A DNA stretch of 42,069 nucleotides from Flavobacteriales bacterium (GTDB lineage: Bacteria > Bacteroidota > Bacteroidia > Flavobacteriales_D > Cryomorphaceae): NCBI GenBank assembly GCA_022448105.1, contig JAKVAV010000020.1:1785-43853 (forward strand). The letters are read 5' to 3'. The position numbers were made by a program, and so were the translations under genes. The notes below the pieces were generated by a model that was given only the letters and a program-made list of their open reading frames with translations, was not told the DNA's origin and did not search any database. Below, piece by piece: positions 33,459-37,689 of this stretch (within the stretch, counting starts at the first letter, position 1; each line of letters begins with the position of its first letter).

Positions 33459-35807
33459 CTAGTACTTCACAAATTGTCTGGAGTAATTTTGTCCATTAGC
33501 TTTCACCACAGCTACATAAACTCCGGGTGCGAACTGTTGAATATCAATTCTCTGATGAGACGAATATTTTCCTCTTTTGATGAGCATTCCGTAGATATCA
33601 TAGATATGAAAAGTTGCATTTGCCTCTTCACGCGATAAGTCGATCCATATTCCTTCTGAAGAAGGGTTGGGGTAGATGGCCATTATTGATTTATCGACTA
33701 TCTCATTTTCCAGGTTTGAAAGGCTTTCACAGTTGTAATCCTCTATTGAGAAATCTGTATTCATAAAAGTGGATAGGTTGCTAATGGCATGTGATTGTCT
33801 CTCTTCATTAAATGTCCTGAGCTTGCTATTGATATTTGAGTGCCATTGACTCATGCTGTTTACATTATGCCACCGGTCTATGTTGTACTCCATACCTGTT
33901 TCATACAAATCAACAAATCGATCAATCGCGTCTGAAACTGCATCCGGGTCAAATTCATTCCTCATCAAACAAGCATATCGGGCTTTAAATTCCTCTTTAA
34001 ATTCGGGCGATTCCAAAAATTTTCTAAGCAAAAAAGTAGCCCATGGAGGATTGGAATAATCTGTGTTTGTTGTTGTTGTTAGACGATTCCATGCATTATA
34101 GGTTGCGGGCAGGTAACCCCACCCAGAATCCATGTCAAAGAGAAGCCAACGCCACTTAGTATCTCCACCACCTCTCCATAACTTGTGATTACCTCCCGGC
34201 CAATCCTTTTGATTAAAATAAATCTCTGTGGCATAATAATCAATCATGCTCGACATGTCCATTTGAGTCTTGATGTAGTCGTAATTTGCGACTTGATTCA
34301 TGTCAGCATTTTCCATGAAATCTGCTAAAGCACCATAATGAGAATTATCTCCTTCAAATACTCCCCAATCTTCAGGAACACCTTCTCTATGACCTGAAGC
34401 GTTGTTGATGATACTTACAGAATCTTCATGATAGCCATGAGTCTCTTCGATATACTGACGATCAAAAAAATCTCTGATTCCAAAGATACCCCAGAACTCT
34501 CCATTGATAAAAAGCAGGCATATTCTTGAATGCTGGCTATCAAAATCTAAATCTTTCGCCACGTAGGCCGAAACATCATCTTTTATGGCGGTATTATTCC
34601 AACATCCCATCGTCGTTCGGAGGATGAGTTTGTCAAATACCCTCTTATTCTTGGTGGTAAAAAATTCATGATTAAACTCTCCAGCACCTAGGTGATTTCT
34701 GGCATATAGCCTGAAAGACTTTTGAGGGTAACCTCTTGTTCTTCCTCCATGTATACGAAGACCGGCAGATTGCTGCCACTCCAAAACACCATTCTCGAAG
34801 TATTCAATGTGTACATCTCTCTCTGAATCCTCTCCCCTTAGAAAATAATTTCCTGACCAAATGAGGTTTGACGAGGTGAAATTCACCCCAGGAACATGAA
34901 TGCCACGATGGTAATCGAATAATGAGTCTCCATCGACCTGAATTGAAAACACGGGGTATTCTTGAAATAAATCAGCTATTTCAGGTCCAATAGGATAACT
35001 TTTGGTAAAAACTTGAGAAGTTGAAATGCCATCTGAAAATGACATTGCCCTAATGGTATTGGTCTGTAGAATCTCTCCATCCGGTTCTTCCCAATTGTAA
35101 GATGTTGAAATGTAAGAGAAAACCGCTTCTTGTTCTGTCGCATCTCCGAATGAAAAAGGCCCTGTATAGAGGGAGCTTTGAGCTGTGGGGATCGATCCGT
35201 TGAGTGTATACCTTATTTCATGTCCGAGTGAATGAGTTAGGTAGACTTCAGTTTCGGATTCAAAAACGCGTGACGGAGAAGAGAAAGTTATTATACTCTC
35301 CGAGATTGCTGGAGCCTCAGGGGTAATGATGTCAACCAGCTCCCAATAACATTCTGCTTCGCAAATGCGTGTGAGTGCAAATCCCTCCGAGAGGGGAGTT
35401 GGGTCAATGTGGTCGATTACATCTCCCTCGGGACTTACGAGGAGTAAAATTTCACCCTCTGACTTTATTTTGAAGTTGGTATGAAAGGGTGCTGTCTGGC
35501 GGTCTTTGTTTGAACAGAAAACAATGAGGTGCTCGTTTGCTTGGATTTCTACTGACGGAAATGTCCATTTAAACAGATTGTCTTCTTCGTCCGTGAGGGC
35601 AAAACCTTGAATGTTTAGAGGTCCGGATGAATTATTGACGATCTCTATCCAGTCACTTGCATCGCCGTCCTCGTCAGGGTAGAGCCCATCGCTGTTAGAA
35701 ACCATCTCTGACAGATATATGTCCTGAGCCAATGAAAAAAAACTGAAGTGCATAAGAACTAGACAGATCAATAGTTTCACTGGAAAGGTGTTACGTCTAC
35801 TGCACAT
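33459..35807 (-). CDS. CotH-family protein with lamin-tail domain and type IX sorting domain
   Basis: Secreted, probably surface-attached protein of 782 residues from the ATG at 35807 (MCSRRNTFPVKLLICLVLMH, signal peptide ending FFSLAQ); a TTG at 35843 would extend it by 12. Residues about 17-120 form a lamin-tail domain (YLSEMVSNSDGLYPDEDGD, SDWIEIVNNSS). Residues about 280-610 match the CotH kinase-like fold: LRIHGGRTRGYPQKSFRLYA, GCWNNTAIKDDVSAYVAKDL, LFINGEFWGIFGIRDFFDRQ and WRWLLFDMDSGWG with the metal-binding Asp region. From about 710 there is a type A C-terminal sorting domain (IYPNPSSEGIWIDL ... FAPGVYVAVV). Family members phosphorylate proteins or are inactive; activity cannot be judged here. 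It follows the symporter gene by 59 bases on the same strand. Confidence 0.88.
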   Translation of the reverse strand: MCSRRNTFPVKLLICLVLMHFSFFSLAQDIYLSEMVSNSDGLYPDEDGDASDWIEIVNNSSGPLNIQGFALTDEEDNLFKWTFPSVEIQANEHLIVFCSNKDRQTAPFHTNFKIKSEGEILLLVSPEGDVIDHIDPTPLSEGFALTRICEAECYWELVDIITPEAPAISESIITFSSPSRVFESETEVYLTHSLGHEIRYTLNGSIPTAQSSLYTGPFSFGDATEQEAVFSYISTSYNWEEPDGEILQTNTIRAMSFSDGISTSQVFTKSYPIGPEIADLFQEYPVFSIQVDGDSLFDYHRGIHVPGVNFTSSNLIWSGNYFLRGEDSERDVHIEYFENGVLEWQQSAGLRIHGGRTRGYPQKSFRLYARNHLGAGEFNHEFFTTKNKRVFDKLILRTTMGCWNNTAIKDDVSAYVAKDLDFDSQHSRICLLFINGEFWGIFGIRDFFDRQYIEETHGYHEDSVSIINNASGHREGVPEDWGVFEGDNSHYGALADFMENADMNQVANYDYIKTQMDMSSMIDYYATEIYFNQKDWPGGNHKLWRGGGDTKWRWLLFDMDSGWGYLPATYNAWNRLTTTTNTDYSNPPWATFLLRKFLESPEFKEEFKARYACLMRNEFDPDAVSDAIDRFVDLYETGMEYNIDRWHNVNSMSQWHSNINSKLRTFNEERQSHAISNLSTFMNTDFSIEDYNCESLSNLENEIVDKSIMAIYPNPSSEGIWIDLSREEANATFHIYDIYGMLIKRGKYSSHQRIDIQQFAPGVYVAVVKANGQNYSRQFVKY

Positions 35808-35866
35808 TTCTTTCAAATCATGAATTTCAGGATAAAATACCAACTAGGTTGCTTAAACTTCTTGAT

Positions 35867-37573
35867 TTAGTCCTCCCAATTGATCTTTTTCCTCATTTTT
35901 AGTGACAAGATAACTGAAATGATCATTACCGAAGCACAGCCAATAAGGTTGAAATACAAGTACGAAATGGTTTCGGATAAGTAATAATAAAGAATCAGAA
36001 TCCCTGCTTGTGATAGGATGGCTGCCATGAAGACAGCATTTCCTTTTACAAATTTTAGGAAGAAAGCAGTAAAGAAGATTCCAAGAATTGTCCCGTAAAA
36101 GAGGCTTCCTAAAATGTTTACGGCTTCGATGAGGTTTTCGAATAGATCTGCGTAAAGAGCAAATCCAACGGCTAGAACACCCCAAAAGGCAGTCAAAACC
36201 TTCGACATTAGAAGGTAGTGCTTGTCGTCACCATCTTTTTTTATCAGTCGCTGGTAGAAATCTACAGAAGTAGTCGATCCCAATGCATTCAGTTCTCCGG
36301 CGGTGCTGGACATTGCCGCAGAGATAATTACCGCTAGAAGTAGGCCCACCAACCCAGCTGGCATAAAATTGAGGATATAGCTGATGAATACATAGTCTGA
36401 ATCCTTTTGTGTGTTTTCTGGGAATGCCTTCCGAACCAAAGCTTTTGCTTCGTCTCTTTTCTCGAACGCTTGATTTTTTAGTTCGTTCAGATTGCTTTCA
36501 GCACTCACGACAGCTTCAGTGTTTCCAGATTCTCGTAGACCGATATACTCTATTGCTGCTTGTTTCTTTTCTTCGTGAATTTGGTAGTGCTCAGTGCGTA
36601 TTTCAGCCAATTCATCATTAAATGTTGTTTTTTCGAGTAATTCGAGGGATGTGCTATCGAATAGTACATCATGGGGCTGGAACTGATAAAACACAAAAAC
36701 CATCACTCCAGTGAGAAGAATAAAAAATTGCATGGGGATCTTGAGAAGAGCATTAAACATCAACCCCATTCTGCTCTCCTTTACAGAAGCTCCTCCCAAG
36801 TATCTCTGAACTTGAGATTGATCAGTTCCAAAGTAGGATAGTGCCAAGAAGAATCCTCCGATGATTCCAGACCAAAAGGTGTATCTTTTCTCACCGTCAA
36901 AACTGAAGTCAATGGCTTCTGTTTTTCCCATTTTTCCTGCCAATTGAAGGCCATTAATAAAGCCAACCTCGTTCGGTAGATTGTAGATAATTGTTCCAAA
37001 AGCCACTGCCATTCCAAATAGAATGACTCCCATCTGCCATTTTTGGGTGAGACTCACTGCTTTCGTACCACCGGAAACCGTATAAATGATAACAAGCATT
37101 CCGACTACTATTATAGTTCCGTTCAAGTTCCATCCGAGCACCGATGAGAGAACAATCGCTGGGGCGTAAATTGTTATTCCCGCCGCCAGTCCCCGCTGAA
37201 CGAGGAATAGAAAAGCAGCTAGCATCCTACTCTTCAGGTCAAATCGTTTTTCTAGGTATTCATAAGCTGTAAAGACCTTGAGCCGATAGTAAATAGGAAT
37301 AAAAACGGCAGAAACTACTATCAAGGCGAAGGGTAACCCAAAATAGTTTTGAACGAAGGCCATTCCTGATTCGTATGCCTGGCCAGGAGTGCTAAGGAAA
37401 GTAATAGCGCTGGCTTGTGTAGCCATTACAGATAAGCCTATTGTAGACCACTTTAATTCTTTGTCTCCAAGAAGATAACCTTGTATGTCTCGATTCTTTC
37501 GGGTCTTATAAGTGCCGTATCCTACTATGAATAACAAGGTTGCCCCGAGCACGAAGTAGTCTAATGGAGTCAT
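35867..37573 (-). CDS. Sodium:solute symporter (SSS family) with a charged helical insertion
   Basis: Inner-membrane Na+-coupled transporter of 568 residues with about 13 predicted spans. The family core is visible in VMATQASAITFLSTPGQAYESG (from about residue 50), YTVSGGTKAVSLTQKWQMG and SAAMSSTAGELNALGSTTSVDFYQRL. Unusually, a hydrophilic, Glu/Lys-rich helical segment of about 80 residues (about 305-385) lies between two membrane spans, likely a coiled-coil-like external or internal loop. The ligand is unknown; relatives carry sugars, sialic acid, amino acids or nucleosides. Its ATG overlaps the stop of the 39-residue gene by ATGA. The neighbouring exported PIG-L deacetylase suggests import of a deacetylated sugar-like product (inference). 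Confidence 0.92.
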   Translation of the reverse strand: MTPLDYFVLGATLLFIVGYGTYKTRKNRDIQGYLLGDKELKWSTIGLSVMATQASAITFLSTPGQAYESGMAFVQNYFGLPFALIVVSAVFIPIYYRLKVFTAYEYLEKRFDLKSRMLAAFLFLVQRGLAAGITIYAPAIVLSSVLGWNLNGTIIVVGMLVIIYTVSGGTKAVSLTQKWQMGVILFGMAVAFGTIIYNLPNEVGFINGLQLAGKMGKTEAIDFSFDGEKRYTFWSGIIGGFFLALSYFGTDQSQVQRYLGGASVKESRMGLMFNALLKIPMQFFILLTGVMVFVFYQFQPHDVLFDSTSLELLEKTTFNDELAEIRTEHYQIHEEKKQAAIEYIGLRESGNTEAVVSAESNLNELKNQAFEKRDEAKALVRKAFPENTQKDSDYVFISYILNFMPAGLVGLLLAVIISAAMSSTAGELNALGSTTSVDFYQRLIKKDGDDKHYLLMSKVLTAFWGVLAVGFALYADLFENLIEAVNILGSLFYGTILGIFFTAFFLKFVKGNAVFMAAILSQAGILILYYYLSETISYLYFNLIGCASVMIISVILSLKMRKKINWED

Positions 37574-37689
37574 GCTGTAGCTTTACTGAAAAAGTATAAG
37601 AACATGCAAAAGGCAAAAAAGAATCCTATTACTATCAGATAGACCCTTCTCCAGTTGGTGTGGTCTGTAGGATTATTCTCTTCGGCCAT
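37570..37689 (-). CDS. 39-residue single-span membrane protein coupled to the symporter
   Basis: From the ATG at 37687-37689: MAEENNPTDHTNWRRVYLIV followed by IGFFFAFCMFLYFFSKATA. A polar N-terminal part ending in Arg-Arg precedes one transmembrane helix (about residues 17-35), predicting N-in topology. It overlaps the 3' end of the PIG-L gene by 17 bases and the symporter start by ATGA, so it is locked into the operon by translation on both sides. Several SSS transporters are encoded with a small membrane partner (YjcH with ActP, YhdT with PanF, DUF4212 proteins); this one is shorter and I cannot assign it to those families, but an accessory-subunit role is a reasonable inference. A longer frame starting at 37761 lies inside PIG-L and is unlikely. 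Confidence 0.72.
   Translation of the reverse strand: MAEENNPTDHTNWRRVYLIVIGFFFAFCMFLYFFSKATA

Follow-up and report, generated by a model that had tools for sequence, protein, structure and literature searches.

Introduction

The single helix of MAP17 (PDZK1IP1) contacts TM13 of human SGLT2, a symporter of the SLC5/SSS family, and SGLT2 transport requires MAP17, according to one report (PMC10803289). The same report holds that MAP17 probably aids the folding and surface location of SGLT2 rather than its activity directly (PMC10803289). Another source counts KdpF, AcrZ, CcmD, and CydX among the very short membrane proteins that belong to large membrane complexes or act upon them (PMC10903887).

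Here, we investigated a gene of 39 codons (the micro-gene; its product, the micro-protein) beside an SSS symporter gene in a 42,069-nucleotide stretch of DNA from the draft genome of a Flavobacteriales bacterium (Bacteroidota, class Bacteroidia); this whole stretch is called the window. As with MAP17 and SGLT2, the pair combines one predicted transmembrane helix with an SSS-fold symporter, and our model of the symporter matches SGLT2-MAP17 entries; unlike MAP17, the micro-protein is bacterial and its gene overlaps the symporter gene. MAP17 is also larger than the micro-protein and has the opposite orientation. KdpF, AcrZ, CcmD, and CydX are alike in being single-helix accessory peptides but have other partners. 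Small membrane proteins are encoded beside other SSS symporters as well, namely DUF4212 (the VC_2705 family), DUF485/YjcH (ActP), and DUF997/YhdT (PanF); each has more than one helix, versus one in the micro-protein. MetS offers a similar case, a small subunit of the methionine transporter MetPS whose gene accompanies that of a sodium symporter, although this partner belongs to the NSS rather than the SSS family. A search of the open-access literature returned no description of the micro-gene.

A 39-codon frame flanked by PIG-L deacetylase and SSS symporter genes

The micro-gene ORF is encoded on the minus strand, flanked by genes for a PIG-L deacetylase and the symporter, and runs from an ATG at 37689-37687 through 39 sense codons to a TGA stop at 37572-37570 (Table 1). 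Its product has 39 residues (MAEENNPTDHTNWRRVYLIVIGFFFAFCMFLYFFSKATA). The initial annotation had proposed a 39-codon frame that overlaps both neighbors, with the strand unstated, and the ORF coordinates bear out the frame and the two overlaps. It had placed the portion outside both overlaps at 37576-37670, which was nearly right; the actual portion, 37574-37672, is slightly wider. It had also read a polar N-terminus, Arg-Arg, and one helix from the letters, a topology that agrees with our AlphaFold2 prediction (see below). An alternative GTG start, 24 codons upstream of the ATG, would yield a 63 aa product; we favor the ATG because relatives of the micro-protein, with starts chosen by script, are 27-55 aa long, mostly 31-47.

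The partner gene encodes an SSS symporter, as both family matches and fold indicate. The protein matched Pfam PF00474 (SSF) at 1.4e-34 (120 bits, cut-off 22.8) and TIGR00813 at 235 bits (cut-off 184). Its model (mean pLDDT 86) matched SiaT (5nva, 5nv9), SGLT2-MAP17, SMCT1, and NIS, with 5nva as the best Foldseek match (E 1.7e-20). The locus did not match a DUF4212/VC_2705-type pair: the small-subunit family was not among the matches of 80 micro-protein family members, and the symporter scored 50 bits with TIGR03648 against a cut-off of 320.75. In plasmid records, no symporter match was found at E<=1e-60.

Table 1. Features of the micro-gene locus, in window positions
Feature	Position	Strand	Basis
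Micro-gene; ORF of 39 aa, predicted single-helix membrane protein	37570..37689	-	family at 137/157 and 79/80 loci; dN/dS 0.28
Predicted helix, codons 13-38, starting at conserved W13 and Y17	37576..37653	-	AlphaFold2, mean pLDDT 87
Polar N-terminus, codons 1-12, probably cytoplasmic	37654..37689	-	family K/R bias
Overlap of micro-gene start and PIG-L gene end, 17 nt	37673..37689	-	ORF coordinates
Overlap of micro-gene stop and symporter start, 4 nt, ATGA	37570..37573	-	ORF coordinates; identical overlap at 147/216 family loci
SSS-family sodium/solute symporter, 568 aa	35867..37573	-	PF00474, TIGR00813, structural matches
PIG-L family deacetylase, 833 aa	37673..40174	-	Pfam PF02585 4.3e-12; symporter also present in 149/295 genomes

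The frame is kept in two phyla and is under purifying selection

Loci were collected with the symporter as bait, so that the micro-ORF had no part in choosing them. From 60 relatives and 295 genomes of the class we took 158 loci (30, plus 28 new ones, plus 100 next-best matches by place); 150 of the 295 class genomes had a symporter match at E<=1e-60, and the 20 genomes whose matches were weakest or partial did not enter the set. Locus L009, without a symporter start, was set aside, which gave 157 class loci. Using a profile seeded with 28 proteins (A1) of these 157 loci and iterated on the same loci, we found a homologous ORF upstream of the orthologous symporter at 137 of them, always on the symporter's strand. 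The ORF ended between -89 and +13 relative to the symporter start in 136 loci and at -191 in one; at 97 of the 137 the end lay exactly at +3, the ATGA overlap.

Twenty class loci gave no match, and two of these (L114 and L118) have fewer than 330 bases upstream, so the profile search puts the micro-gene as absent from 18 of the 155 loci that are not truncated by a contig end. Seven of the 18 belong to one genus, g43. When up to 400 nt upstream of all 18 was searched for another hydrophobic small ORF, none of the family was found; three loci (L071, L084, and L141) have a more distant hydrophobic small ORF, in each case outside the family.

With the symporter as query, 80 named GTDB loci were retrieved, many of them from metagenome-assembled genomes. 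The micro-gene was present at 79 (78 at E<1e-3 and L203 at 0.0015); the sole locus without it was L229, of Gemmatimonadetes. Judged by record title, with three genus names checked, Verrucomicrobiota or its subgroups account for 37 of the 79, and the named loci also include Salibacter halophilus (L195, Bacteroidota) and an uncultured Flavobacteriales bacterium (L201). The family thus numbers 216 members, a total that counts no fewer than four named loci twice (L189, L195, L201, and L210). No profile match at E<1e-3 was obtained in 20 upstream regions of other SSS symporters, 57 symporter-internal stretches, or 157 shuffled upstream regions, and a hydrophobic small ORF ended upstream of 0 of the 17 paralogous SSS symporters that could be placed.

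We then compared substitution rates in 30 disjoint pairs chosen solely on the symporter N-terminus, at loci with the ATGA overlap. Pooled over the pairs, the micro-gene had a pS of 0.57, a pN of 0.25, and a dN/dS of 0.283 (bootstrap 0.219-0.349), while the symporter N-terminus gave 0.160. The same micro-gene DNA read in the two shifted frames gave ratios of 1.12 and 1.51 and contained 116 and 46 stops, per 1800 codons each. Against the sole same-genus relative searched, codons 8-38 carried 12.7 synonymous changes over 18.8 sites and 20.3 non-synonymous changes over 74.2 (pS 0.67, pN 0.27). A first dN/dS of 0.143, from 66 pairs, was dropped, as those pairs had been picked by the micro-protein's own identity.

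The initial annotation had argued for real translation from the ATGA coupling, and had named the conservation of the frame and the ratio of synonymous to non-synonymous changes as ways to check it. Both results support translation: the frame is kept in the class and the named loci alike, and synonymous changes exceed non-synonymous ones in the pooled pairs as well as in the same-genus comparison. These ratios show purifying selection on the micro-protein. With only 39 codons, a single sequence could not by itself exclude a chance ORF, but homologs in two phyla, purifying selection, and controls without matches all speak against one; this degree of conservation refutes the idea, which we consider extremely improbable. 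Given the family, the dN/dS, and the clean controls, the micro-ORF is more than chance, and the comparisons identify it as a genuine, widely conserved gene that is translated, as far as sequence comparison can show.

The ATGA overlap, the shortness, and the position of the ORF would also suit a leader or translational-coupling ORF, in which translation matters and the peptide does not. This reading is already disfavored, and we regard it as very unlikely: the dN/dS of the true frame is far from the ratios of the shifted frames, tryptophan is retained at position 13 in 95% of 199 aligned rows and tyrosine at position 17 in 99% of 202, the G+C content of the family genes ranges from 21% to 69%, and four genomes have the micro-gene away from the symporter.

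The micro-gene is preferentially linked to one symporter clade

In the 60 relatives, 30 genomes gave a micro-gene profile match at E<=1e-3, each a single one, and every match adjoins the orthologous symporter; the profile rows come from 12 of these 30 genomes, and the other 18 contributed none. An orthologous symporter start was present in 31 of the 60, only one of which (G031) has no micro-gene, and there PIG-L runs directly into the symporter. In a genome-wide search of the class (E<=0.01, at most 25 candidates per genome scored), 129 of the 150 symporter genomes had a match, although the one in G342, away from the symporter, looks like chance. Some of the 21 missed genomes reflect detection limits; G141 and G162, for example, have the micro-gene as L073 and L094. 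In G181, another match to the family, a partial one (G181:C141:706-774; E 4e-6), lies ∼1.7 kb upstream of the first and is a possible second copy. In genus g43 (family f21; e.g., L082, L115, L128, and L140), all 10 symporter genomes keep PIG-L and have a micro-gene match nowhere, so the micro-gene is dispensable there.

At thresholds of E<=1e-60 for the symporter and E<=1e-50 for PIG-L, 149 of the 295 class genomes have both, one has the symporter alone, 10 have PIG-L alone, and 135 have neither. The deacetylase and this symporter clade thus co-occur near-perfectly (11 genomes have only one), including where the genes are unlinked; we found no paper on the pair in the open-access literature.

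The deacetylase gene precedes the micro-gene at most loci; at 75 of the 80 named loci, a PIG-L match ends no more than 600 nt before the symporter starts. Moreover, in four genomes of two genera among the matches listed (G254, G165, G260, and G174), the micro-gene directly follows PIG-L and the symporter lies elsewhere; loci L270, L271, L272, and L273 are those of these four genomes. Such an arrangement would be expected if the micro-protein were not a symporter subunit but bound the PIG-L deacetylase as a partner or anchored it to the inner membrane or to the symporter. However, at least 23 class genomes show the reverse, with the micro-gene adjoining the symporter and PIG-L elsewhere (G226, G178, G132, G198, G323, G295, G341, G148, G181, G080, G060, G252, G241, G321, G182, G159, G127, G194, G302, G325, G133, G123, and G086; coordinates read by hand). 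This count is a lower bound, and most class genomes are drafts. In addition, 8 of the 10 genomes with PIG-L and no symporter match have no micro-gene profile match. The other two (G277 and G336) have the micro-gene beside PIG-L, less than 400 bases from a contig end, so a symporter gene would run off the contig. These two are among eight micro-gene matches in genomes without a symporter match, and the remaining six are chance-like (E 5e-4 or worse, two with internal stops). The stretch after the hydrophobic core of the micro-protein is also short for a tether, with a median of 5 residues. We therefore consider a tether of the deacetylase unlikely, with some room left for a role alongside that enzyme because of the four genomes that keep the micro-gene with PIG-L. 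Those four aside, the 30/30 adjacency and its absence at the 20 paralogs indicate that the micro-gene is preferentially linked to one symporter clade.

The micro-protein is a predicted single helix of a new family

From an alignment of 80 rows, AlphaFold2 predicted a single helix in the micro-protein, at residues 13-38. Across the 216 proteins, hydropathy over the best 19 residues averages 2.48 and never falls below 1.43, and K/R residues average 3.06 ahead of this stretch versus 0.51 beyond it. By the positive-inside rule, we infer from this charge bias that the protein spans the inner membrane with its N-terminus in the cytoplasm and its C-terminus in the periplasm.

The initial annotation had supposed that the micro-gene was likely missed by annotation; Pfam and NCBIfam gave no consistent family match in 80 members. 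Weak Pfam matches (Ycf70, best E 0.00057; Gemini_mov; DUF2976; and others) reached 1-2 of the 80 members each at E<=0.05 and up to 3 of 28 at E<=1; they are scattered over unrelated hydrophobic families, and we took them as chance, as we did a PDB profile match to PsbL (best E 0.013). At E<=0.05, the Pfam and NCBIfam matches of the 80 members included none of DUF4212, DUF485, DUF997, KdpF, AcrZ, CcmD, and CydX, and MetS was not among the NCBIfam matches; models for DUF485, DUF997, and MetS are presumably contained in these databases. Likewise, when a 43-member profile was run against the PDB sequences at E<=10, MAP17, presumably represented in the set, was not among the hits. We conclude that the micro-protein represents a new family of a known kind, the single-helix accessory peptides of membrane transporters.

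A hint of coevolution between the helix and the symporter

Both mutual information (122 pairs) and Gaussian direct coupling (202 pairs) paired F34 of the micro-protein with symporter residues 218 and 220, which lie in the loop before a predicted helix at 233-250. The top mutual information score was 5.3, versus 5.2 for a PIG-L control and 4.6 for shuffled rows. The best direct coupling over the 202 pairs was F34-T218 (z 9.3); in the same 108 genomes, the score was 8.1 for the symporter, 5.7 for PIG-L, and 6.1 for shuffled partners, with a top pair that differs from F34-T218. When co-changes were followed on the tree with branch correction, F34-T218 was not significant (p 0.06, rank 538/17252), nor was F34-A220 (p 0.018, with 17252 pairs tested). 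Overall, these analyses give no more than a hint of coevolution between helix and symporter.

A candidate auxiliary subunit of the symporter

We favor, as probable though well short of certain, the reading that the micro-protein is an obligate or stabilizing single-helix auxiliary subunit of the adjoining SSS symporter and works by analogy with MAP17 and SGLT2. This reading draws on the presence of the gene upstream of the symporter at 137/157 and 79/80 loci, the adjacency of 30/30 profile matches in the 60 relatives, the absence of a match at all 20 paralogs, and the at least 23 genomes that keep it with the symporter versus four that keep it with PIG-L. Those four genomes, and the 18 of 155 loci without a micro-gene, count against it. 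In the proposed mechanism, the ATGA overlap would couple translation, such that micro-protein and symporter are made together; the helix would pack against the symporter in the membrane and may assist its folding, stability, or function, the role that MAP17 has for human SGLT2. The substrate to be imported by the symporter is probably a product of the neighboring PIG-L deacetylase, which would make or trim it.

The linkage evidence would serve equally for a micro-protein that, encoded in the same operon, inhibits or negatively regulates the symporter to tune uptake, and small single-helix regulators of transporters exist. The ATGA overlap, kept at 147/216 loci, is in our judgment more usual for a subunit, and we hold an inhibitor to be improbable, somewhat more so than a deacetylase tether.

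For the subunit reading, a broader version stands at about even chances: ∼40-residue single-helix subunits may be a built-in part of this SSS symporter clade in Bacteroidota and Verrucomicrobiota. The pair would then be a counterpart of SGLT2-MAP17, one-helix subunits would have evolved repeatedly on the SSS fold, and a two-component transporter would be served by PIG-L. A 120-base gene without a consistent Pfam or NCBIfam model is in any case kept by the same transporter in two phyla. If the micro-protein is a subunit, expressing these symporters without it may fail, and failure of that kind may have kept their substrates from being noticed; the need of SGLT2 for MAP17 could also be examined in a simple bacterial pair. 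Symporter and PIG-L, for their part, co-occur near-perfectly, which points to a shared uptake pathway.

Other features of the neighboring genes

The symporter carries a long insert at about residues 300-390, predicted to form two long helices (319-349 and 352-383), and where its sequence is aligned locally to known SSS structures, the best matches end near residue 300. By eye, the N-terminus of the PIG-L deacetylase resembles a signal peptide. Downstream of the symporter, positions 33459-35843 encode a protein with CotH and lamin-tail domains and a C-terminal Por_Secre_tail sorting domain.
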